From positions 5,394,001 through 5,458,000 of the forward strand of contig NZ_CP133671.1 of NCBI RefSeq assembly GCF_031326345.1: a stretch of DNA of 64,000 bases, read 5' to 3'. The DNA comes from Aureispira sp. CCB-E (GTDB lineage: Bacteria > Bacteroidota > Bacteroidia > Chitinophagales > Saprospiraceae). Below, in pieces: positions 9,067 to 60,484 of this stretch (within the stretch, counting starts at the first letter, position 1; each line of letters starts with the position of its first letter). The position numbers were made by a program, and so were the translations under genes. The notes under the pieces were generated by a model, which saw nothing but the letters and a program-made list of their open reading frames with translations, did no database searches and was not told the DNA's origin.

Positions 9067-9210
9067 TGGTCTTAATCTTAGAATTTGATGAGCACAAAAA
9101 TAAGCTTAAAGTCATAAATTGTACTATTTTATGGATTCTAATTTCGTTTCAAATAAGATATTACTTGCAACAATTCTTAATCCCAAAATCAATCTCATCT
9201 AGCTAAAAAC

Positions 9211-9245
9211 AAAAAACTCTTCCAACTATCACTAGAAGGAAGAGT
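9211..9245 (-). terminator. Terminator-like hairpin upstream of the GH3 gene
   Basis: ACTCTTCC at 9216-9223 pairs perfectly with GGAAGAGT at 9238-9245. A-rich sequence on the left gives a U-tract in the minus-strand transcript. It would stop transcription arriving from the ADP-ribosylglycohydrolase gene before the GH3 gene. Confidence 0.6.
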
Positions 9246-9421
9246 CCTAAAAACCCAAACAAATAAACACAAAGATATAACGAAGATAAACATATTTTTC
9301 AGAACTTTTAAAGAGTACCACAAAATTTTATGCTTTTTTTTGAAAATTCAAAGTATTTTTTAAGTAATAACTTCGTTTTCAGCTCAAACAAGCCTACAAA
9401 AGGGCTTCATTCTATTTTAAT

Positions 9422-9640
9422 AATACTCCGTTGATTACCTGCGGTGCTACTTCGTGGTAGCTCCCTGCGGTCGTGAGATCGCTATCGCTTAGTTTTTTAG
9501 TTTTCCTACGAACCCGTAGGCTCACGAAGTAAAAACGTAAAAAAGCATCTTGCATTAGTTTGATTACCACTTTTAGCATAAAGGTTAACAAAGAACATCT
9601 TACTGATAATCAAACTAATACAATTTTTCAACGGAGTAAT
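9422..9640. repeat. MITE-like element with terminal inverted repeats
   Basis: AATACTCCGTTG (9422-9433) and CAACGGAGTAAT (9629-9640) are inverted repeats (11 of 12). Inside lie further pairs: TTAGTTTGATTA near 9555 with TAATCAAACTAA near 9607, ACTTCGTG near 9450 with CACGAAGT near 9523, and the hairpin CCTACG-AACC-CGTAGG near 9505. TTTTAA flanks both ends (9415-9420 and 9642-9647), a possible target duplication. No ORF of note is inside. A related end, AATACTCCATTGATTAC, occurs at 44482. It is probably a small non-autonomous mobile element or a structured intergenic repeat. Confidence 0.5.
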
Positions 9641-48794: not shown

Positions 48795-48905
48795 ATGTCA
48801 CAAATGCAATACAAAAAACTAAAAGCAAGCGGTAATACTTTTGTTTTTCTTCCATTAATTGGTGTAATTACAAAATGTAAGAAAAAAATTAAATTATTTA
48901 TTTAA
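48795..48905 (+). CDS. Possible 36-residue ORF in the leader of the CHAT locus
   Basis: ATG at 48795, TAA at 48903-48905. Encodes MSQMQYKKLKASGNTFVFLP followed by LIGVITKCKKKIKLFI: a hydrophobic middle with basic ends, like a small membrane-active or regulatory peptide. It lies about 70 bp before the first small partner gene, in the same direction. Chance is a real possibility in such AT-rich DNA. Confidence 0.2.
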   Translation: MSQMQYKKLKASGNTFVFLPLIGVITKCKKKIKLFI

Positions 48906-48973
48906 CGAATAGGTAACAAGGAACACACACCAATACATTTCGTCCCCGTTGCCTTACAAACCCCTAATAAGTT

Positions 48974-49657
48974 ATGGCTATTCAACGTCGTGGAAGGTTA
49001 AGAAAATCACTTACAAATCCAAGTAAGTATAAAGTTGTTATTATTGTTGGCGATGACTCTGAAGAGGATATAGTAAAGACTGTAGATGTCTCTATTCCTA
49101 CTATAGAAAATCAACCCATTCCCTCTCCTAATGAAATGACATTACCTCTAAAAGTCACTAAAGAAAATGGAGATAAAAAATTTGTGTTCAGCGACTTAAC
49201 ATTTAGTGACAATGCTGTAAACTTTTCATATCCTGTAACTAGTGTTATGAAAGATGTCAACAACAAACAAGTTGGAGAACCATTAACCGTAACACTACAA
49301 GTAGAAGATAGTCGAGATGCTAGAGTTCGAAATGTCACTATCAGAGAAGTAAAACCTGAACAATTTAGATTAAGATTGGTCGTTGTTGGTGATCACGAAG
49401 ATAATATTGTTTCTGCAGAGGTTATTTTTTCTGACTATTCTGGTCCAGAACCAATTCCTACAGAACTTTTGCTAACAGATCCTATTATAAAGGATAGCAA
49501 AAAAATCTTTAAAGACAATACTTTAAATTTTGATGATCCCTCTGCTGCTGCGGATCAAATCTATTATTTAGTAGTTGATTTAAAGGATGCCGAAGGCAAT
49601 TCACTTGGCTCTACAGAATACACCGTAGTAGTTGAAGGTTTAGAAGTAGAAGCATAA
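48974..49657 (+). CDS. Two-repeat beta-sandwich-like protein, candidate partner of CHAT protease 1
   Basis: A 227-aa protein with no signal peptide and a very basic start (MAIQRRGRLRKSLTNPSKYK). Two tandem domains of about 95 residues follow: repeat A (21-112: VVIIVGDDSEEDIV, DVSIPTIENQPIPSP, LTFSDNAVNFSYPV, GEPLTVTLQVE) and repeat B (about 131-227: LVVVGDHEDNIVS, EPIPTELLLTD, NTLNFDDPSAAADQ, GSTEYTVVVEG). The alternating hydrophobic strands suggest an Ig-like or fibronectin-like fold. The single-domain protein at 53531 is clearly homologous to repeat A. Both precede a TPR-CHAT gene. A substrate, inhibitor or sensor role for the CHAT protein is inferred from this repeated arrangement. I know no named family for it. 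Confidence 0.75.
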   Translation: MAIQRRGRLRKSLTNPSKYKVVIIVGDDSEEDIVKTVDVSIPTIENQPIPSPNEMTLPLKVTKENGDKKFVFSDLTFSDNAVNFSYPVTSVMKDVNNKQVGEPLTVTLQVEDSRDARVRNVTIREVKPEQFRLRLVVVGDHEDNIVSAEVIFSDYSGPEPIPTELLLTDPIIKDSKKIFKDNTLNFDDPSAAADQIYYLVVDLKDAEGNSLGSTEYTVVVEGLEVEA

Positions 49658-49681
49658 ACTATTCTTCAAACAAAAAATACG

Positions 49682-49722
49682 AAAAGCCATCTCTACCATA
49701 AAATAGGGATGGCTTTTTTTGT
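49682..49722 (+). terminator. Terminator between the small gene and CHAT gene 1
   Basis: AAAAGCCATCTCTA (49682-49695) pairs with TAGGGATGGCTTTT (49704-49717), 14 bp with one G-U pair and an 8-nt loop, followed by further T. It lies 25 bp after the small gene and about 130 bp before the protease gene. Confidence 0.88.
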
Positions 49723-49846
49723 TATTTTATACAGAAAGTAAGTATTTTGCTCCTCTTCTACTAAATTTTTTTATTAGAATTTAACATTCTTGCAATTTTA
49801 TGTATTTTTCATAAATCATTCCTGTAGCACTACAAATACCCACTCT

Positions 49847-52800
49847 ATGAATATGCAGATTAAAATAAGTATTACTTTCATCTTTTTTTTCTTGGTTATT
49901 AGTAGCATTTACTCTTTTCAAGAATCCCCTTATACTCCAGAGCTACAAAAAAAATTAACCGTTGAGAAAAAAAAAGCAGAGGAATTGATGGATAAAGGTT
50001 TATGGGATGAATCTATCCAAGCATATAAATCAGTCCAACAAAAATACTTCAGCTTGGGATTAAAGTCAATTGCTACTGATGTATATGAGGACATTTTAAT
50101 CGTTATTGTTCTACGAGATGATTTGGATATAGCAGAAAAACGTGAGATAATAGAAAATATAAAACGTAATGACTCTAATCCTAATCTAACAGGCATCTAC
50201 TATGGTGCTTTAGCCCATTTATTTACTTTTTATGGTGAAATAGATTCCATAAATTCATACTATGAAAAAGCCTCTCTATTATATCAACAACAGAAACGTT
50301 ATATATTAGAAGGTAATCTGAATACAACTTTAGCTTTTGAGTTTTACATGTTGGACAATTTACAGCAATCTGAATTATTTTTAAAAAAAGCAGAAAAAAT
50401 TTTAAATAAAAAGCTAAAACCCAATAATCTAGATTTGTTAACAATCTATAACGTTCAAACTATGGTTTACCATGGTCTTGCCAAATACGATAAAGCATTA
50501 AAAGCAAATCTTACTAGTATCAAAACATTAAAAAGTGCCCCATCTACCACTCCTTTGATTTTAGCTTATGAATATAACAACCTTGCTACAATTTATGGCG
50601 CATTAAAGGATTATAACAATTCTCTAGACTACTATCAGAAAGCTCTTAATTTAATTAAATCAGGCAATTACCCCCCCGAAGAATTAGCCATCTATGTATT
50701 TAATATTGGAGCTACATACGCAGAGCAAGAAAAATTTTCTCTAGCAAAAGAGGCTTTTCTAGAATCCTTATCTTACCTTAATTCCTCCAAAGAAAGAAAC
50801 AAAGATATTTTAGTCGACTATATCAATAATTACCATCAAATTGCCGTTTGTTATCAACAAGATAATAACTTAGATTCCGCATTATTTTATATACAAAAAG
50901 CTGAAGATATTAATCAAAAGTATCCCTATAGAATATCAGCTACATATAAAATATTAAGTCAAATTGCCCTAGCCCAAAAGGAATTTGGCAAAGCAAAAGA
51001 ATATGCCTTAAAATCAATACAGAAAAGTAAAGAAGCCTATGGTGAAAAAAATACTATTTTAAATATTTCATACAACACGCTAAGTGACATAAATATAGCC
51101 GAAAACAACTACCAAGAAGCTCTGTTCAATACCCAAAAAGCATTAGAAGCCATTAGCTTAAATTTTTCGGATCCCAAAGGAGTGAGTAATCCTAAATTGG
51201 CAGATGTTTTAAACAAAGGAGAATTATTGTCTACCTTAAGAAGGAAACTCAGTATCCTCAAACAACTTTACAAGCAAGGCGATCCTTTGGTAACAGGAGA
51301 TGATGTTTTTGGGACGGCTAAATTGACCGCAGAAGCCTTGGAGCAAATGAACCGAAAGATGAAAGATGTTAATTCTAAACGAGGTTCATTAAATCGACAA
51401 GCTTTGCCTTTATTTGAAGCGGCTATTTCTTCTGCCTTGGAAGTTGCCAATAAAACAGGTGATGAAAAATACATTAACGAGGCATTTATGCTATCAGAAC
51501 GTAGTAAGTCTATGTTAATGGCTGATGCCATGCAAGGAGCGATTGCCTCTAGTTTGGGTGGTATCCCTGATAGCTTGTTAAAAAAATTGGATGACCTGCA
51601 AGAAGCGTTGGCAGATGCCGAAAAACAACGTTTTGAAGCTAAAACAGCGGGGAATACAGCCAAAGAAAAAGAAATGGAAGCTGCTGTTTTTGACTGTAAA
51701 CACCACTTAAATTTACTAGAACATAGTTTAGAGGAGCAGTACCCTAAGTACAAAACGTTAAAAATGAAATCTTCTGTGGCATCTGTTCAAGATATCCAAG
51801 ATGTCCTAAGTCCTAAAACTATCTTCATTGAGTATTTTGAAGGAGAAAATGATATCTACGCCTTTGCCATTACTAAAAAAGGAGTGTCTGTAGAAGTCAT
51901 TGCCAAAGAGGAAGATTTTAAATTAAATATTTTCAGCTTCCAGAAGTCGTTGATGGACATCAAAGCTTTTACTGCTCAACCTGGCATTGTCTACAATGCA
52001 TTTGTCAAAAAATCGCACTATTTTTATTCCAAACTAATTCAAAATGCCGTTAAAGAAACAGCAGAAAGATTGATTATTGTCCCTGACGGGCAGTTGGGAT
52101 ATTTGCCATTTGAGGTGTTGATTACTCAAGAAATGCCTCTATTAAAACAAGGAACCGACCAAGGAGCTGACTTTTCTACCCTTCCTTATTTGCTGCGTGA
52201 TTATAAGGTTAGTTACAACTATTCAGGGACGCTTCTAATGGCTCAACAGGCTAAAAAAGAAAATATTATCAATGGCAATATTCTGGCATTGGCTCCTTCC
52301 TACGCCCCTACTGAAATGCCCAATTGGCGTGAAAAAAGAGAAGTAGAATTGAGAAAAACATTGATCGAGCTTCCTGGTGCTGTTAATGAAGTCAGCAAAT
52401 TGGAAGAATTATATGCTGGTCAATTTTATATTGGTCAACAAGCCAATGAGACGATATTCAAAACATCTGCGCCTAAACATGGTATTTTACATTTGGCCAT
52501 GCATGGCTTGGTGGATCAAAAAGACCCAGAGTATTCAGGCTTAGCATTAACCGAAGACCAAAGCAAAGAGGAAGATAATTTTTTGTATGCCTATGAAATT
52601 AAACAATTAGGACTTCAAGCAGGCTTGGTTGTCTTGAGTGCTTGTGAAACAGGAATTGGCAAATACCAACGTGGTGAAGGAGTCGTTAGTATTGGTCGTG
52701 GATTTATGTATGCTGGCGCCCCCTCTTTGTTGATGACATTATGGAGTTTGAACGATCAATCTGGCGCTGCTATTATTGAACAATTTTATCACAATTTAAG

Positions 52801-53026
52801 CCAAGGGATGGAAAAAGATGAAGCCATTCGTCAAGCCAAATTATTTTATTTGGACAACTATCCTAATGAATATACCCATCCCTTTATGTGGGCTGCTTTT
52901 GTTCAAGTAGGTGACTACTCTAGCATTAAAATAAATCATAAAAAAAATTGGAACTATTATATAATAGGAACTGTTATATTTTTGTTAATATCATTTTTTT
53001 TACTTATCTTAAAAAAACAGAAATAA
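49847..53026 (+). CDS. Exported TPR-CHAT cysteine protease-like protein 1
   Basis: ATG at 49847 (or 49853) opens a signal peptide (MQIKISITFIFFFLVISSIYSF); the frame reaches back only to a TTG at 49790. Residues about 60-470 are tetratricopeptide-type helix pairs (YNNLATIYGALKDYNNSLDY, IAVCYQQDNNLDSALFYIQK). A helical linker precedes the CHAT domain (about 690-1020). The caspase-like dyad is present: His886 in HLAMHGLVD and Cys933 in LSACETGIG, with the GEGVVSIGRGFMYAGAPSLL and TLWSLNDQS regions. A C-terminal membrane helix (YIIGTVIFLLISFFLLIL) ends in basic residues, placing the TPR and CHAT parts in the periplasm if the signal peptide is used. CHAT proteins are caspase/separase relatives; the substrate is unknown. 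Confidence 0.9.
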   Translation: MNMQIKISITFIFFFLVISSIYSFQESPYTPELQKKLTVEKKKAEELMDKGLWDESIQAYKSVQQKYFSLGLKSIATDVYEDILIVIVLRDDLDIAEKREIIENIKRNDSNPNLTGIYYGALAHLFTFYGEIDSINSYYEKASLLYQQQKRYILEGNLNTTLAFEFYMLDNLQQSELFLKKAEKILNKKLKPNNLDLLTIYNVQTMVYHGLAKYDKALKANLTSIKTLKSAPSTTPLILAYEYNNLATIYGALKDYNNSLDYYQKALNLIKSGNYPPEELAIYVFNIGATYAEQEKFSLAKEAFLESLSYLNSSKERNKDILVDYINNYHQIAVCYQQDNNLDSALFYIQKAEDINQKYPYRISATYKILSQIALAQKEFGKAKEYALKSIQKSKEAYGEKNTILNISYNTLSDINIAENNYQEALFNTQKALEAISLNFSDPKGVSNPKLADVLNKGELLSTLRRKLSILKQLYKQGDPLVTGDDVFGTAKLTAEALEQMNRKMKDVNSKRGSLNRQALPLFEAAISSALEVANKTGDEKYINEAFMLSERSKSMLMADAMQGAIASSLGGIPDSLLKKLDDLQEALADAEKQRFEAKTAGNTAKEKEMEAAVFDCKHHLNLLEHSLEEQYPKYKTLKMKSSVASVQDIQDVLSPKTIFIEYFEGENDIYAFAITKKGVSVEVIAKEEDFKLNIFSFQKSLMDIKAFTAQPGIVYNAFVKKSHYFYSKLIQNAVKETAERLIIVPDGQLGYLPFEVLITQEMPLLKQGTDQGADFSTLPYLLRDYKVSYNYSGTLLMAQQAKKENIINGNILALAPSYAPTEMPNWREKREVELRKTLIELPGAVNEVSKLEELYAGQFYIGQQANETIFKTSAPKHGILHLAMHGLVDQKDPEYSGLALTEDQSKEEDNFLYAYEIKQLGLQAGLVVLSACETGIGKYQRGEGVVSIGRGFMYAGAPSLLMTLWSLNDQSGAAIIEQFYHNLSQGMEKDEAIRQAKLFYLDNYPNEYTHPFMWAAFVQVGDYSSIKINHKKNWNYYIIGTVIFLLISFFLLILKKQK

Positions 53027-53530
53027 TGTATAAGGCAATTTAACCCCTAATTTAAAGTTGCCTGTTTCCCTGTTTAATTTAATACTTCTAAAATTTATCT
53101 TCTCCTTCGTCCACTATTTATATTAGGAAAGATTGATTTTAGAAACTGTTTTGTAATACAAATATATCCCCTATGTTTCTTCTAGACGAGAATCATAACA
53201 CTCCCTTGTTGTTATGGTTGATGAAATATTTTTGGTGTGTTAATCAACAATCACTCAACTCAAGCAGTGCATTGTTTCACTCCATTATACAACAACAACT
53301 TATTTTCTCTACTCGTACCCAACTAAAACTCAATAAGACAATATGCTCATTGGCACCTTCTCTTGTGCCTTATCCACAGATAATACCTCCACTCTATTCA
53401 CAGAGTTGGAGTCGCTTTATGATCATAAACACATCGATTCCAAACCTTATTTTTTCACTTAGTTCTAAAAAATAAAGCTAAGAGCTAAACAAATAAAACA
53501 CATTTAAAAACATAGAAAACTTAAACAATT
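53027..53530. other. Intergenic region between the two CHAT modules
   Basis: About 500 bp. It contains the hairpin at 53033-53063 and a 100-codon plus-strand frame (53173-53475) rich in Ser, Leu and Gln that I do not accept as a gene. A promoter for the second small gene should lie here. Confidence 0.45.
53033..53063 (+). terminator. Hairpin after CHAT gene 1
   Basis: AGGCAATTTAA (53033-53043) and TTTAAAGTTGCCT (53051-53063) pair with a small bulge just after the stop. Only scattered T follow, so it is a weaker terminator candidate. Confidence 0.55.
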
Positions 53531-53875
53531 ATGGCTTACGTACGAAACATGAAAGCAAAAAGAGGGGCTAATACCTCTACCAAAACAAAAGTTACTGTAG
53601 TAGTGGGAGAAGACAATAGCAAGTCTGTAAAATCCGTTCAAGTATACATTCCTACTATTCCAAACCAACCTACTCCTGAACCAGAAAATATTGTCCTTTA
53701 TTTTGAAAGAATGGAAGGAGACGATCGAATTTTTTCTTATGATAATTTGAATTTCAGCTCTGATCCTGTAGATTTTACTTACGAAATGACAGCAACAATG
53801 AAAGATGGTTCTGGTGGTACTATTGGCAGCCCTTATAGCCAAGCCGTTCAGATAGAAGCTGAAGTTCTGGTTTAA
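53531..53875 (+). CDS. One-repeat beta-sandwich-like protein, candidate partner of CHAT protease 2
   Basis: A 114-aa protein with a basic start (MAYVRNMKAKRGANTSTKTK) and no signal peptide. It aligns along its length with repeat A of the 227-aa protein at 48974: VTVVVGEDNSKSVKSVQV with VVIIVGDDSEEDIVKTVDV, YIPTIPNQPTPEPENI with SIPTIENQPIPSPNEM, LNFSSDPVDFTYEM with LTFSDNAVNFSYPV, and MKDGSGGTIGSP with MKDVNNKQVGEP. It sits 199 bp before CHAT gene 2 with a hairpin between, the same layout as the first module. Function unknown; partner of the CHAT protein by inference. Confidence 0.75.
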   Translation: MAYVRNMKAKRGANTSTKTKVTVVVGEDNSKSVKSVQVYIPTIPNQPTPEPENIVLYFERMEGDDRIFSYDNLNFSSDPVDFTYEMTATMKDGSGGTIGSPYSQAVQIEAEVLV

Positions 53876-53955
53876 AATTCAAAAAAATAGTTTGTTAAAA
53901 ATTAGCAATCCTATTTTTCCCTGACTAAGAATAATAAAAATCAAAATAAATATAC

Positions 53956-53995
53956 AAAGCTATCTCCTTTTCAAGAGATAGCTTTATATTTGTAT
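53956..53995 (+). terminator. Hairpin between the small gene and CHAT gene 2
   Basis: AAAGCTATCTC (53956-53966) and GAGATAGCTTT (53975-53985) form a perfect 11-bp stem with an 8-nt loop, followed by TATATTTGT. It lies about 80 bp after the small gene and mirrors the terminator at 49682-49722. Confidence 0.8.
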
Positions 53996-54074
53996 GTATT
54001 ACAGCTTCCCGTTACAGAATTCTAAATTCAAATGCTCTCCCTGTTTCTTTTCATCTAAGTAAAAGTGACTTACT

Positions 54075-57000
54075 ATGCGTTATCGGTTTACAGCTATCCT
54101 CTTTTGTTGTTTTTTTTTTAGTTCCACTAGTTTTGCCTTCCAGTCGCCCCAACCACCTTATATTTTTTCCGTTCCAGAACTCAACCAATTGAGATTGGAT
54201 GCAGAAATACACGTCAGCAATAGCTTACCCCATCAAGCACTAAAGGCCTTTCAAGCCCTACAAGAAAAATGTTGGGAATACCATTTGGATAGTGTTGCCA
54301 TTGATATTTACGAGGATATTTTCATCGCTTGCATCTTATCCGATAATCAAACCTTGGATAAAACTTTGGCTTTTATTGATAGCTGTTACCAACAAGAAAC
54401 CGATAGTAGCATCAATGGGATTTATTATGGAGCTATTGCCCATGCTTATTTGTTTTATGGGGAAATAGATTCTATGGAAAAGTATTACAATCTAGCTATT
54501 TCTATTTATGAGCAACAAAAACGGCACTTACAAGCCGCCCACCTCAATATTAATATAGCTATTGAGTATTTTTTTTTAGAACATTTATCTAATGCCAAAA
54601 AATATTTGCACAAAGCAGAAGCTATTGAAAAAAAACACCTAATCCCTCAACAACTCTATACACCAGCCTTGTATTCAGCTCAAACCTCTATCTACAAAGC
54701 GTTAGGTCTATACGAAAAGGCTATTAAAAGTATGATGAAAGCCATTCGCCATGGCAAAACTAGTCAATCAATGACTCCTTTTTTTTTAGCTTATGAGTAT
54801 GCTCATCTTGCCAATATATACGATGATTTAGAAGATAATAATAATGCCTTAAATTACTATCACAAAGCCCTCAACACCCTAAGAAACGTAACCATAGATG
54901 ATCCAAATGAAATTTCACATTTACTATATAATATAGCATATGTTTTCCACAAACAGGGAAAAATAGCAAAAGCAAAACAATATATCTTTCAATCTATTTC
55001 TTCGATTGAAAAGGCAGATACCCTTAACAAAAACTTACAAGAGAATTTAATTCACAATTACCAATTATTAGTAGATTGCTACTCTGACCAAGACTCTGTT
55101 CTTTATTATATTCATAAAGCACTAGAAGTTCATCATGATAATTCTTATATGATCAATATAACATATAGATATTATGGCTATTACTTCTTTCGAGAACACG
55201 ATTTTAAAAATGCGCAACTATACGGTCAAAAATCGCTAGAAGCAGCTCTAAAAACCTATGGACCGAAACATACTCAAGTTGGGCTGAATTACCTATTACT
55301 GGCTCGAACGGTCTTTGCCAAACGCCATTATACTCAAGGTTTTCAGTATCTACAAGAAGCATTAAGTGCTCTAAGTACAGACTTCTCAGACAAGGACGGA
55401 CTTTCTAATCCTAAATTATTGGATCAACTAACTAATAAAACAACTTTTTTAGCTGTTTTATACGAAAAAATGAAGTATTTGAATATACTTTATAATCAAG
55501 ATTATCCAATTGCTACAGAAAAAATCCTATATCAAACTGCAAAATTAGCTACCCAAACCATAGAATCCATCAATCGAAGTATCAAAAGTCGAGCTTCTCA
55601 ATTAGCTTGGTTGAATAAAGAAGCCATTCCTGCTTTTGAGCAAGCCATACAAATTGCACTAAGCATCTATAAAAAAACAAATAATACGGAATACCTAAGC
55701 GAAGCATTTGCCTTGGCAGAACGCAGCAAATCAATGCTAATGATCAGTACTTTCCAAGAAAATGAGGCTTTTGCGCTTGGCAAAGTCCCTCAAGAGCTGA
55801 TTCACCGTGAGCGAGCTTTGTATCAACTATTATCAGATTCCAAAAAGAAGCATTTTGATGCTACACTCTCCAAGGATGAAGCTATGATGGCTTTTCAAGA
55901 CAGTTTGATTTTTGAGTATACCGATCAAATTATGATGTTATTGCACCAATTTGAATTGGAGTATCCTGAATATTATAAACTAAAATATACCATCAAATCG
56001 ACAGGAATCAAAGCCGTACAAGATCAACTGGATGCTAAGACTGCTTTCATTGAGTATTTTGAAGGCGTATCTAATATCTATGCCTTTAGCATTACCAAGC
56101 AGACAGCTACCGTACACACGATTCCAAGAACAGATTCTTACCACCAAGATGTTGCCGATTTTCAAGCTATTTTAATTGGTTTGGATGAAGCAGCTCAAAA
56201 TACGGCTAAAAGTTACAACCAGTTTCTTGAAACAGCTCATCAATTCTATCTAACATTTTTAAAAAACAGCTTACAAAATACCTCTGTAGAACGATTGATT
56301 ATCATTCCTGATGGGCGATTGAGCTATTTACCTTTTGAAGCTTTTTTAACCAAAGAAGTTCCATTAGATATCAATCAATCCAATAGCAATGCCAATTTTG
56401 CTCCTCTCCCATATCTAATTAGAGATTACAAAATTAACTACAACTATTCTGCTACCTTATGGATTGAACATTTGCTTCAAAAAGAAACTTCTAAAAATGG
56501 TCGTATCTTAGCTTTGGCTCCTAGCTATGCCAACAAAACCGCTCCCAAGTGGAGAAGTCCTTATGAAAAACAGCTTCGAACAGAGCTGGTAGAACTTCCT
56601 GGTGCCATTCGAGAACTAGATTTTTTAAAATGGTCTTTTGATGGTACCTTTTTGGTCAATGGTGCTGCAACCGAAGCCGCTTTCAAAGAAAAAGCTTTAG
56701 ATTACAGCATCTTGCACTTTGCAGTTCATGGCTTAGTTGATACCAAACACCCTGAATTTTCGGGCTTAGCTTTGGCTGAAAACGGCGACAAAATGGAAGA
56801 TAATATCTTGTATACGTATGAGATCAAGCAGTTGGGCTTAAATGCTGATTTGGTAGTTTTATCTGCTTGTGAAACAGGAATTGGAAAGTATCAATTGGGA
56901 GAAGGCATTTTGAGTATTGGACGAGATTTTATGTATGCGGGCGTTCCTAGTATGTTAACGACCTTGTGGAGTCTCAATGATTATTCTAGTTCTATTATCA

Positions 57001-57254
57001 TTGAGAAATTTTACACCAACCTTAGCTTGGGCATGGAAAAGGACGAAGCCATTCAACAGGCCAAACTCTATTATTTGGATAATTACGAAGGCTTATCTAC
57101 TCACCCTGCTTTGTGGGCTTGTTTTGTGCAAGTAGGTGATTACGCTAGCATTCCTATTCACAAAAGCTATCGGACATGGTATATTGCTTTGGCTGTCTTT
57201 GGAGGCTTGTTGCTTCTAAGTAGTTTTGTCTTTTTTAAATTTAGAGCTCGATAG
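54075..57254 (+). CDS. Exported TPR-CHAT cysteine protease-like protein 2
   Basis: A 1059-aa paralogue of the proteins at 49847 and 57293 with the same order of parts: signal peptide (MRYRFTAILFCCFFFSSTSF), TPR-type repeats (about 50-450; YEYAHLANIYDDLEDNNNAL), helical linker, CHAT domain with His885 (HFAVHGLVD) and Cys932 (LSACETGIG), and a C-terminal helix (WYIALAVFGGLLLLSSFVFF) ending KFRAR. LVELPGAIRELDFLKWSFDG and DFMYAGVPSMLTTLWSLNDY are shared with protein 3, its closest relative here. Only 38 bp separate it from CHAT gene 3, so the two are probably co-transcribed. A periplasmic, membrane-anchored protease is inferred. Confidence 0.9.
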   Translation: MRYRFTAILFCCFFFSSTSFAFQSPQPPYIFSVPELNQLRLDAEIHVSNSLPHQALKAFQALQEKCWEYHLDSVAIDIYEDIFIACILSDNQTLDKTLAFIDSCYQQETDSSINGIYYGAIAHAYLFYGEIDSMEKYYNLAISIYEQQKRHLQAAHLNINIAIEYFFLEHLSNAKKYLHKAEAIEKKHLIPQQLYTPALYSAQTSIYKALGLYEKAIKSMMKAIRHGKTSQSMTPFFLAYEYAHLANIYDDLEDNNNALNYYHKALNTLRNVTIDDPNEISHLLYNIAYVFHKQGKIAKAKQYIFQSISSIEKADTLNKNLQENLIHNYQLLVDCYSDQDSVLYYIHKALEVHHDNSYMINITYRYYGYYFFREHDFKNAQLYGQKSLEAALKTYGPKHTQVGLNYLLLARTVFAKRHYTQGFQYLQEALSALSTDFSDKDGLSNPKLLDQLTNKTTFLAVLYEKMKYLNILYNQDYPIATEKILYQTAKLATQTIESINRSIKSRASQLAWLNKEAIPAFEQAIQIALSIYKKTNNTEYLSEAFALAERSKSMLMISTFQENEAFALGKVPQELIHRERALYQLLSDSKKKHFDATLSKDEAMMAFQDSLIFEYTDQIMMLLHQFELEYPEYYKLKYTIKSTGIKAVQDQLDAKTAFIEYFEGVSNIYAFSITKQTATVHTIPRTDSYHQDVADFQAILIGLDEAAQNTAKSYNQFLETAHQFYLTFLKNSLQNTSVERLIIIPDGRLSYLPFEAFLTKEVPLDINQSNSNANFAPLPYLIRDYKINYNYSATLWIEHLLQKETSKNGRILALAPSYANKTAPKWRSPYEKQLRTELVELPGAIRELDFLKWSFDGTFLVNGAATEAAFKEKALDYSILHFAVHGLVDTKHPEFSGLALAENGDKMEDNILYTYEIKQLGLNADLVVLSACETGIGKYQLGEGILSIGRDFMYAGVPSMLTTLWSLNDYSSSIIIEKFYTNLSLGMEKDEAIQQAKLYYLDNYEGLSTHPALWACFVQVGDYASIPIHKSYRTWYIALAVFGGLLLLSSFVFFKFRAR

Positions 57255-57292
57255 TTTTCTTATTTCTTTAAGCACCGAACCAAGCTTTCTAT

Positions 57293-60200
57293 ATGAAGAT
57301 TTTGCCAATCTACTTATCTTTATTATTTGTTTTATTTTCAACTTCTTCTTGGGCATTTCAATCTCCTATAGAGGCATATACCTTTAACATTCCTGAATTG
57401 GATAGTTTGGTAAAAAAAGGGAAACAACAGGCAAATGAAGAAAGATTTAATGCCGCGATCAAAACGTACCAACAATTGCAGCAAAGGTGTTGGGATGTCG
57501 GCTTAGATAGTGTTGCTATTGATTTGTATGAGGATATTTTTGACGTTCATTTTTTAAAAATGCAAGGATTAGCCCATACCTTAGCATTTATTGACAGTTG
57601 CAAACAGCAAGAAGCAGATAGCAGTATATTAGGGATTTATTATGCTGCATTAGCACATAATTATCTGTTTTATGGAGAGCCTGACTCTATGAAAAAATAT
57701 TACACCTTAGCGGTCTCGCTATATACCCAGCAGCAACGGTATATGCAACTGGCTACTCTTTATCTTAATATTGTTAGTGAATTTTATTTTGGGGAACAAA
57801 TTTCTTCAGCCCTAGAATACTTGCAAAAAGCAGAAGATTTAATTGAAAAAAAGCTACGTCCCAAAAATTATTATATTCCTGAGATATATCACCTACAAGC
57901 TTTAATTTATTTCAGCATTAGCAAATATGAAAAAGCTATACAAAGTTCATTGGCAATGATCAAATATGATAAAAATAGTGGTATTGCTTCTGACCATATG
58001 TTAGCATACGAATACAACAACCTTGGTGTAGCATTGGATCGATTAAATGATTATGAAAGTGCCATGGATTATTATCAAGCGGCTTTGTCATTAACTTTAC
58101 AAACACAAACAAAAGATCCCAATAAAATTGCCTATCTATTGATTAATATCGGTACGTCATATGGCTTTCAAAAAAAAAGAACGCAAGAAAGAGATATGTA
58201 CCTCAAAGGATTAGATATTCTACTAGAAATAGACTATTTAGATTTAGAATCTCAAGAAGACTTTATAAATGCTTGCTACTATTTAGCCAATTACTATAGA
58301 ATCAAAAAACAAAGTGACTCCACCATCTATTATATCAATCAAGCTTATAAAATCAACCAAGTTAATGATTATAGAATATACCAAACTTATGAACTGTATG
58401 GTTTATACTTTCTGAATCAGAAAAACATCAGTAAAGCCAATAGTTATGCTTTTAAGATGTTAGAGAACACCATAAAAAAATATAACGTCAACAGCAGTGA
58501 AGTTGGATTATCTTACGAACTACTAGCCACCATATCCAAAGCTGAAAAAAATCACCTAAAAGCCTTAGAATACAACCAAAAAGCTCTAGAAAGCCTATCA
58601 CCAAACTTATCTACTCAAGAAGGTTTTCCCAATCCTATCTTAGCGGATATATCCGATAAAAACCTCTTTTTAGATATTTTAGAGCATAAAATGGATGACC
58701 TTAGAACACTCTATGCTCAACAACACCCCCAAGTTTCACAAAGTGATTTGCATCAAACGGCCAGGTTAGCCACAGAAACCATGGAGTACATTAGCAAAGG
58801 GATAAAAAATAAAAAATCCAAGCAACGGTGGTTGACCGATAGAGCCATCCCCGTTTTTGAACAAGCCATTCAAATTGCATTGCTGCTTTATCAACAAACA
58901 AAACGTAAAGCCTATCTAAATGAAGCATTTTTGTTGGCAGAACGTAGCAAATCAATGCTACTACAAGAAGACTTCCAAACTCAAAAGGCAGTTAACTTAG
59001 GAAGTATCCCCAATCATCTTATCCTACAAGAGCAAAGTTTACAAAAATGCATTGCCGATATTACCAAAAAGCGTTTGGATGCTAAGTTGAGTAATAATTT
59101 TGATCGAATGGAGTCCTTAGACAGCGCACTTTTTGGATACAAGCACCAACTTATTGAGCTATTGCATCATTTTGAATCTGAGTACCCCCTTTATTACCAA
59201 CTAAAACATACCTTTAAAACAACTGGCATTCAAGAAGTTCAAGTAGCTATAGATGAACAAACCATCCTAATCGAATATTTTGAAGGCACTAAAAACATTT
59301 ATGTCTTTAGCATTAGCAAGGATACCGCCTTTGTGAACACCATCCAAAAATCAGATACCTATCAAGCCGACATTGCTAATTTTCGTTCTACGCTTGTAAG
59401 CATTCATGCGACCTCTCAAACTCCCACCAATTATTACAATAAATTTATTGAGAGCGCGCATAAGTTTTATGGTACTTATCTCCAAAACAGTCTAATTCCT
59501 TCTAAACAACGCCTAATTATTATTCCTGATGGTCATTTAAGCTACCTGCCTTTTGAAACCTTCTTGACTCAAGAAGTAGCACCAGAAAGAAATCAAGCCA
59601 GCAAACAAGTTGATTATGGTCAACTACCCTATTTGCTTCTAGATTATAAAATCAGTTATAATTACTCGGCAGATCTCTTAATAGAACGTCAAAATCCAAC
59701 CCCAAACAGCCAACAAGGGCAAATTTTAGGTTTTGCTCCTAGCTATGCTCACCCAATTCTCCATTCTTCTAGAAACCCATATGAACAAACTCTGCGCAAG
59801 CATTTGGTAGACCTACCAGGTGCTTCTAAAGAACTTGAGTTTTTACAATGGCATTTCAAAGGGAGCTTTTGGGGAGGTGAATTGGCTACCGAAGCTCAAC
59901 TAAAGAAAGAAATTTCGGATTATGATATTTTGCACTTTGCGGTTCATGGTTTGGTTGATAACAACTACTCTGATTTTTCGGGGCTGGCATTTGCTGAAGA
60001 TGGTAATGATCAAGAAGATAACATTTTATATGCTTACGAAATCAAACAACTTGACCTCAATGCGAACTTGGTTGTCTTATCTGCCTGTGAAACAGCTACT
60101 GGACAATATCAAGCAGGAGAAGGCATTTTGAGTCTTGGTCGAGATTTTATGTATGCGGGCGTTCCTAGTATTCTTTCTACTCTTTGGAGCTTAAATGATT

Positions 60201-60484
60201 ATTCTAGTGCTTATTTGATTAAGAAATTTTATACCAACTTAAGTCTTGGAATGGATAAAGATGAGGCTATTCGAAAAGCTAAATTAGATTATTTGGGCAA
60301 TCACACAGGCATTTCTACCCACCCTGCTTTGTGGGCTTGTTTTGTTCAAATTGGCAATTATAATCCTATTGAATTAAATCCAACCTACAATAATGCTTGG
60401 CTTTTTGGTTCTATTGCTATTCTTTTAGTAATATTGTCCATTAGCTTTTTATTGTACAAAAAACGCAGTAGAACTGTACTATGA
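57293..60484 (+). CDS. Exported TPR-CHAT cysteine protease-like protein 3
   Basis: A 1063-aa paralogue with signal peptide (MKILPIYLSLLFVLFSTSSW), TPR region, CHAT domain with His885 (HFAVHGLVD) and Cys932 (LSACETATG), and C-terminal helix (AWLFGSIAILLVILSISFLL) followed by YKKRSRTVL. His and Cys fall at the same residue numbers as in protein 2, which supports a recent tandem duplication. Unlike the other two it has no small beta-protein gene directly upstream. Its stop TGA overlaps the ATG of the pseudouridine synthase gene (ATGA), so the two are probably translationally coupled. Substrate unknown. Confidence 0.9.
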   Translation: MKILPIYLSLLFVLFSTSSWAFQSPIEAYTFNIPELDSLVKKGKQQANEERFNAAIKTYQQLQQRCWDVGLDSVAIDLYEDIFDVHFLKMQGLAHTLAFIDSCKQQEADSSILGIYYAALAHNYLFYGEPDSMKKYYTLAVSLYTQQQRYMQLATLYLNIVSEFYFGEQISSALEYLQKAEDLIEKKLRPKNYYIPEIYHLQALIYFSISKYEKAIQSSLAMIKYDKNSGIASDHMLAYEYNNLGVALDRLNDYESAMDYYQAALSLTLQTQTKDPNKIAYLLINIGTSYGFQKKRTQERDMYLKGLDILLEIDYLDLESQEDFINACYYLANYYRIKKQSDSTIYYINQAYKINQVNDYRIYQTYELYGLYFLNQKNISKANSYAFKMLENTIKKYNVNSSEVGLSYELLATISKAEKNHLKALEYNQKALESLSPNLSTQEGFPNPILADISDKNLFLDILEHKMDDLRTLYAQQHPQVSQSDLHQTARLATETMEYISKGIKNKKSKQRWLTDRAIPVFEQAIQIALLLYQQTKRKAYLNEAFLLAERSKSMLLQEDFQTQKAVNLGSIPNHLILQEQSLQKCIADITKKRLDAKLSNNFDRMESLDSALFGYKHQLIELLHHFESEYPLYYQLKHTFKTTGIQEVQVAIDEQTILIEYFEGTKNIYVFSISKDTAFVNTIQKSDTYQADIANFRSTLVSIHATSQTPTNYYNKFIESAHKFYGTYLQNSLIPSKQRLIIIPDGHLSYLPFETFLTQEVAPERNQASKQVDYGQLPYLLLDYKISYNYSADLLIERQNPTPNSQQGQILGFAPSYAHPILHSSRNPYEQTLRKHLVDLPGASKELEFLQWHFKGSFWGGELATEAQLKKEISDYDILHFAVHGLVDNNYSDFSGLAFAEDGNDQEDNILYAYEIKQLDLNANLVVLSACETATGQYQAGEGILSLGRDFMYAGVPSILSTLWSLNDYSSAYLIKKFYTNLSLGMDKDEAIRKAKLDYLGNHTGISTHPALWACFVQIGNYNPIELNPTYNNAWLFGSIAILLVILSISFLLYKKRSRTVL

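Follow-up and report, generated by a model that had tools for sequence, protein, structure and literature searches.

Why are small genes of no named protein family kept beside TPR-CHAT protease genes, and which part of the protease might their products concern? We followed this question at a locus of Aureispira sp. CCB-E (genome size, 7.39 Mb) that lies in a 64,000-nucleotide (nt) stretch of contig NZ_CP133671.1 (positions 5,394,001 to 5,458,000 of the forward strand). This whole stretch is referred to here as the window, and coordinates are given within it. The locus consists of five genes in the same direction, small1, CHAT1, small2, CHAT2, and CHAT3. Between CCB-E and a conspecific strain (G127), small1 and the TPR half of CHAT1 differ strongly while the protease half is nearly identical, and further divergent patches lie in the TPR halves of CHAT2 and CHAT3. 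We tentatively favor reading the locus as a polymorphic recognition module. Its genes and divergent segments are as follows.

48974..49657, + strand: small1, open reading frame (ORF) of 227 amino acids (aa); two immunoglobulin (Ig)-like repeats, leaderless; 54.5% protein identity to conspecific strain G127
49847..53026, + strand: CHAT1, 1059 aa from ATG; signal-like N terminus, TPRs, CHAT protease, C-terminal membrane segment
53531..53875, + strand: small2, ORF of 114 aa; one Ig-like repeat, predicted seven-strand sandwich
54075..57254, + strand: CHAT2, 1059 aa; TPR-CHAT protein of the CHAT1 type
57293..60484, + strand: CHAT3, 1063 aa; TPR-CHAT protein lacking a dedicated small gene
48901..51000, no strand: divergent allelic block (small1 and CHAT1 TPR half), from the G127 alignment
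54501..55500, no strand: divergent patch in the CHAT2 TPR half, from the G127 alignment
57701..58000, no strand: divergent patch in the CHAT3 TPR half, from the G127 alignment
58201..58600, no strand: second divergent patch in the CHAT3 TPR half, from the G127 alignment

The strain comparison set the CCB-E genome (G000) against G127, these being the two genomes of the species in our sample. Across the locus, identity fell below 95% in 27 of 76 intervals of 300 nt, below 90% in 23, and below 80% in 14. The right flank was identical over about 2.9 kb (0/18 intervals below 90%). At the 26 other CHAT loci of the genome, taken with their flanks, 9 of 821 intervals were below 95% and 2 below 90%, counted over megablast-aligned stretches, with 300 to 1400 nt unaligned in 4/26 loci. 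The 26 other CHAT genes themselves were 98.0 to 99.8% identical to G127, two of them being partly covered.

Within the locus, protein identity to G127 was lowest for small1 (54.5%), followed by CHAT1 (86.6%), CHAT2 (93.0%), and small2 and CHAT3 (94.7% each). The divergence of CHAT1 was confined to its first part: residues 1 to 370 showed 47.5 to 70.8% identity and a synonymous divergence (dS) of 1.35 to 1.83, and identity from residue 370 on was 99.5 to 100% (dS, 0.01 to 0.03). For small1, dS was 1.14; dS was calculated with our own Nei-Gojobori script, and such values are near saturation. CHAT2 and CHAT3 diverged mainly at residues 120 to 480 (75 to 91% identity; dS, 0.16 to 0.56) and were 99.1 to 100% identical from residue 480 on. 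Because the protease is constant while the TPR half is variable, the TPR superhelix would be the specificity part. Strong differences in a sensing half and its partner between near-identical strains are often seen in recognition genes, be they self/non-self or immune.

Synonymous divergence so high marks the blocks as old alleles rather than products of recent point mutation, and fast point mutation was ruled out on this ground. Gene conversion among the three tandem CHAT genes was also rejected: over the initial 1800 nt, the scan gave the ortholog as the best match in every 300-nt interval. Possible donors of the CHAT2 and CHAT3 patches were sought among CHAT genes, and a 3259-nt G127 block served as the query for the small1-CHAT1 block; with 40 of 103 candidates scored, no donor for the latter was found in the CCB-E genome. 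The ten matches of this query comprised the locus block itself, seven matches to a short repeat at the G127 contig end, and two short matches inside CHAT2. The G127 contig (C11, L057) ends about 110 nt upstream of small1 in this sequence of about 80 nt, which has seven 99 to 100% identical copies in the CCB-E genome and is probably the end of an insertion element.

A relative of the divergent small1 allele was found in another species. G127 small1 was 77% identical to that of G204, a metagenome-assembled genome of another Aureispira species, versus 55% to that of G000, and the two grouped (support, 97/99) in a tree of five rows, one of them long, whose other inner branch was unresolved. The 133 nt past the G204 small gene were 88% identical to G127 and 79% to G000. 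In the G127 pseudouridine synthase, the gene to the right of the locus, identity was 100% to G000 and 77% to G204. The G204 assembly lacked the CHAT1 partner of its small gene, and trans-species sharing is thus seen for small1 only. CHAT1 residues 30 to 400 shared 66% identity between the conspecific strains and 58% with G199 and G200, while the CHAT domain of CHAT1 was 100% identical between the conspecific strains versus 79 and 84% to G199 and G200. The comparison indicates that the protease stayed constant while old alleles of the sensing half were exchanged.

One of the strains might also have acquired diverged DNA from another Aureispira in one or a few events, with no selection for recognition. 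Such a neutral import would be in line with block divergence as high as that between species, with the resemblance of G127 small1 to G204, and with dN/dS ratios below 0.4. However, this one 11.5-kb locus has at least four separate divergent patches. Each falls in a small gene or a TPR half, the intervening protease halves being near-identical, whereas 2/821 intervals are below 90% at the 26 other CHAT loci. We therefore consider neutral import improbable.

The sequence-only reading of this DNA had described three full-length TPR-CHAT proteins (1059, 1059, and 1063 aa) with intact His and Cys and two homologous small genes, with two repeats and one repeat, each upstream of a CHAT gene, and it knew no named family for the small proteins. 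This description held. Coordinates, Pfam, and motifs agreed for the CHAT proteins: Pfam detected CHAT (E 1.1e-48 to 2.9e-53) and TPR in CHAT1, CHAT2, and CHAT3, and the His and Cys motifs of the CHAT domain were intact in all three. Searches with small1 found small2 at E 1.4e-16 (36%), and the small2 query matched the second repeat of small1 at E 6.8e-4. No family was found for either small protein in Pfam (E 0.1), NCBIfam, or PADLOC, nor was there a match in the PDB sequence search; PHROGs gave a single match at E 0.12. Plasmid and Rfam searches and an initial contig search from one sequence were without matches.

To establish how widely small genes accompany TPR-CHAT genes, genomes were searched at four taxonomic levels, the draws for which overlap. 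The first-look search scores part of the candidates per genome (e.g., 11/26 in G000), so the counts of matching genomes are lower bounds, and an unfiltered profile search was therefore run on all ORFs of at least 30 aa at the 26 other CHAT loci of CCB-E. No partner was found there, the next best hit having an E value of 0.45. As far as the profile search of the genome and the unfiltered search of these 26 loci and the window extend, small1 and small2 are the sole genes of the family in this genome.

Among nine Aureispira genomes, six (G000, G127, G199, G200, G202, and G203) carry nine small genes whose downstream neighbor is complete, and in 9/9 cases this neighbor is a TPR-CHAT gene of the same clade. 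In G204, both genes lie close to contig ends, the small gene at a distance of 133 nt and a clade CHAT gene, on another contig, at 192 nt. No small match came from G021 or G201, in which the best CHAT match stood in a different gene neighborhood. At the family level, at least 11 of 398 genomes matched, seven of them Aureispira. In G294, of another genus, a small gene is followed after 67 nt by the gene for a TPR protein, truncated at the contig end; in G076, the small gene itself is truncated in this way, and another contig opens with a CHAT1-like gene (46%); G033 has a lipoprotein-like small homolog with no CHAT motif within 19 kb; and the match in G198 is doubtful. At least 5/396 genomes matched at the order level, all of them already found. 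At least 5/395 matched at the class level, namely, CCB-E, G879 (two small copies with signal-like starts and no CHAT motif in a 9.6-kb contig), and three doubtful rows. The phylum level gave at least 2/390, namely, CCB-E and G1296, whose small copy is lipoprotein-like, with no CHAT motif within 14 kb. Beside the G1296 homolog (L177, reverse complement 9170-9624) are two small ORFs whose starts resemble GG-type leaders, so that they may encode secreted peptides. The rows set aside as doubtful were G198 (E 0.0065) and G851, G807, and G665 (E 2.7e-4 to 5.3e-4, partial), near which no ORF with an LSAC[EQ]T motif was flagged.

Leaderless copies thus go with TPR-CHAT genes wherever the neighbor is known, and exported copies (four genes in three genomes) do not. 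Seven CHAT loci outside the clade or at its edge (three in G076 and one each in G021, G056, G152, and G057) had no small homolog in their flanks, one of these loci starting at a contig edge. The pairing is real but limited; it is kept across Aureispira species and probably extends to one further genus (G294). The sequence-only reading had looked to adjacency of the repeat family to CHAT genes, and to homologous CHAT genes regularly having such a partner, as tests of its inference. The first expectation was borne out in Aureispira (9/9), where the family does not occur mostly away from CHAT genes, but not for the four distant homologs in three genomes; the second was borne out for this TPR-CHAT clade but not for CHAT genes outside it.

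The structure of the small proteins was approached by prediction. The best AlphaFold2 model of small2, built on a three-row alignment, is a seven-strand sandwich (predicted local distance difference test [pLDDT] score, 89.8; predicted TM-score, 0.81); the other four models were much poorer, with pLDDT scores of 66.0 to 36.5. Foldseek against the PDB gave weak generic Ig-like matches for this model, none at E ≤0.001, and two viral models matched below E 0.001, with TM-scores of 0.50 to 0.52. An in-frame stop precedes each small-gene start, at an interval of one codon in one gene and two in the other, and no hydrophobic stretch occurs in residues 1 to 35 of the 12 leaderless relatives (15-residue maximum, ≤0.79), compared with maxima of 1.9 to 2.3 in three exported relatives. 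With a stop so near the start and no hydrophobic stretch, no signal peptide is expected on the small proteins.

The CHAT proteins of the locus look exported and membrane anchored. Their hydrophobic N terminus ends in F-Q (Y-Q in 1 of 12 clade members compared), and CHAT1 to CHAT3 have a hydrophobic C-terminal segment followed by basic residues. By the positive-inside rule, the TPR and CHAT parts would face the periplasm. A model of whole CHAT1 from three sequences reached a mean pLDDT of 56.1, the TPR part alone being usable. In the genome as a whole, 29 CHAT-like places match CHAT2, two of them weakly, and 26 lie outside the locus. The 29 TPR-CHAT-like matches, many with signal-like starts, amount to a large CHAT repertoire for one genome.

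The small proteins had previously been proposed as substrates, inhibitors, or triggers of the CHAT proteins. In support of some such role, the pairing is kept in Aureispira, and a dedicated substrate, cut in the manner of Csx30 by Csx29 to release an active or inhibitory part, would account for a neighbor gene kept with a protease whose His and Cys are intact and has a precedent in Csx30 (PMC10028731). However, the small protein and the protease are predicted to be in different compartments, and the CHAT half is unchanged while small1 differs at about 45% of its sites; Csx30, according to that paper, contacts Csx29 through the CHAT2 domain of the latter alone. The predicted small2 is, moreover, one compact domain. 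A substrate of the Csx30 type acting in the same cell is thus unlikely, and a trigger, ligand, or inhibitor read by the TPR half would fit better.

The small genes are also set apart from their CHAT genes by terminator-like hairpins, two of which lie in the locus.

49681..49718, + strand: terminator-like hairpin in the small1/CHAT1 gap, from the hairpin scan
53956..53985, + strand: terminator-like hairpin in the small2/CHAT2 gap, from the hairpin scan

Such a hairpin followed the small gene in 11/11 cases (the nine pairs, G294, and the G204 contig end), whereas 1 of 440 dinucleotide shuffles reached the same energy limit; the stem AAGCTATCTC was common to six of the eleven. The scan found one more hairpin upstream of small1, none after CHAT1, and none in the CHAT2-CHAT3 gap. 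With such a hairpin standing between each small gene and its CHAT gene, the pair is no plain cotranscribed operon. The hairpins fit small genes with transcript ends of their own, as is common for independent genes, and this layout would allow far more small protein than protease.

The TPR halves might be sensors of phages or rivals under diversifying selection, with the small gene merely carried in the recombined block and serving a separate job. The separate ends of the small genes agree with this, as do TPR patches of CHAT2 and CHAT3 that diverge despite a small2 of 94.7% identity and the absence of a CHAT3 small gene. Nevertheless, in the genus genomes examined, the small gene and the CHAT clade are both present or both absent, and small1 is the most divergent protein of the locus. 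We hold it unlikely that the small gene is only a passenger.

Since the small gene also varies and stays with the CHAT clade, it is the best candidate for the cue of the TPR half. Under the recognition module that we favor, the TPR-CHAT protein would be a membrane-anchored, caspase-like protease with a constant effector half, whose variable TPR superhelix would read a protein cue. The leaderless Ig-like protein encoded next door would be its matched specificity partner, acting as ligand, trigger, or shield. Selection would keep old alleles, and recombination would move the small gene and TPR half as a block, with the protease half and right flank constant. Killing or signaling upon meeting non-self cells or a phage would be the outcome. 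Balancing selection, binding of the small protein to the TPR half, activation of the protease, and this outcome are what we infer from the comparisons. In a more specific and rather doubtful version, this would be a bacterial self/non-self locus, in which the TPR half of a membrane-anchored, caspase-like receptor reads a leaderless Ig-like protein that other cells release on lysis or inject on contact. Old alleles of the ligand and of the receptor half would persist across Aureispira species, and the two would be swapped together in a single haplotype block.

Several observations weigh against the recognition module. Two conspecific genomes yield no allele frequencies, and, as the small gene and TPR half are adjacent, their shared divergence may be due to hitchhiking. 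The dN/dS ratios in the divergent blocks (0.10 to 0.35) do not by themselves point to positive selection. CHAT2 and CHAT3 are variable even though small2 retains 94.7% identity and CHAT3 lacks a small gene. Neither class of TPR helix was enriched in variable residues (A, 0.28; B, 0.25; a difference of this size arose in 77 of 405 circular shifts), and the distances of small unit 1 followed those of the CHAT domain (r = 0.80) almost as closely as those of the TPR half (r = 0.83). Short patches also occur in other, otherwise about 99%-identical CHAT genes (L035, 44 changes in 450 nt; L045, 25 in 300 nt), so that divergence is strongest at this locus but perhaps not unique to it. Finally, as the small proteins have no signal peptide and the proteases look exported, an encounter of the two would require passage between cells or some other unconventional path. 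Three solutions to this location puzzle are conceivable: the small protein originates in other cells, it is exported in an unusual way, or the topology guess is wrong.

In its remaining layout, the locus has a gene for a cysteine-rich CCG protein and a 160-aa gene as left neighbors. A longer CHAT1 ORF has a TTG start at 49790, and CHAT3 starts 38 nt past CHAT2. The segment at 53173-53475 (100-aa ORF) has 99.7% DNA identity between the strains, though flanked by divergent blocks, and a short piece of it recurs close to the start of a G204 contig; it is possibly noncoding or a small mobile repeat.

Among the matches listed in full-text literature searches on CHAT-domain proteins and Aureispira, no title concerned this locus. 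It resembles Craspase (type III-E CRISPR Csx29/Csx30) in joining TPRs to a CHAT protease with a His/Cys dyad and in having a dedicated neighbor-encoded protein. It differs in the signal-like N terminus and C-terminal membrane segment of its proteases and in that the TPR half varies between Aureispira strains while the CHAT half does not. With regard to Cas7-11 and Csx30, PADLOC gave no match for the five locus proteins and six further window proteins (11 of 50 listed ORFs of at least 100 aa), the presence of Csx30 models in its library being unconfirmed. A gasdermin-protease pair finds no support, as the neighbor is not a gasdermin by Pfam (no family at E 0.1) and the small2 model is a beta sandwich with weak Ig-like matches.

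Multicellular bacteria have retroelement-diversified sensors with a protease effector, one with a CHAT domain, according to PMC10907252. The combination of a diversified sensor and a protease effector is shared, but the divergence in Aureispira comes in blocks, is mostly synonymous, and has a counterpart in another species. High synonymous divergence spanning whole blocks argues against a target of a diversity-generating retroelement.

The natural swap of a sensing half and its neighbor, with the protease untouched, shows where specificity likely sits and offers ready-made allele pairs for testing what the protease recognizes. In fungi, clusters of NOD-like receptors (NLRs) and of proteases with gasdermins join a repeat sensor to a protease, CHAT in some, in two-gene clusters (PMC12881547), and the het genes of Aspergillus show trans-species alleles that reach no more than several hundred bases beyond the coding sequence (PMC11138114). 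The Aureispira locus is like these heterokaryon-incompatibility and NLR systems in its repeat-domain sensor and protease and in its old trans-species alleles, here seen for small1 in two strains and one other species; it differs in being bacterial and in having, by Pfam, no gasdermin as the neighbor. If it truly serves self/non-self recognition, it would be a bacterial counterpart of the fungal incompatibility genes, built on the same repeat-plus-protease plan.

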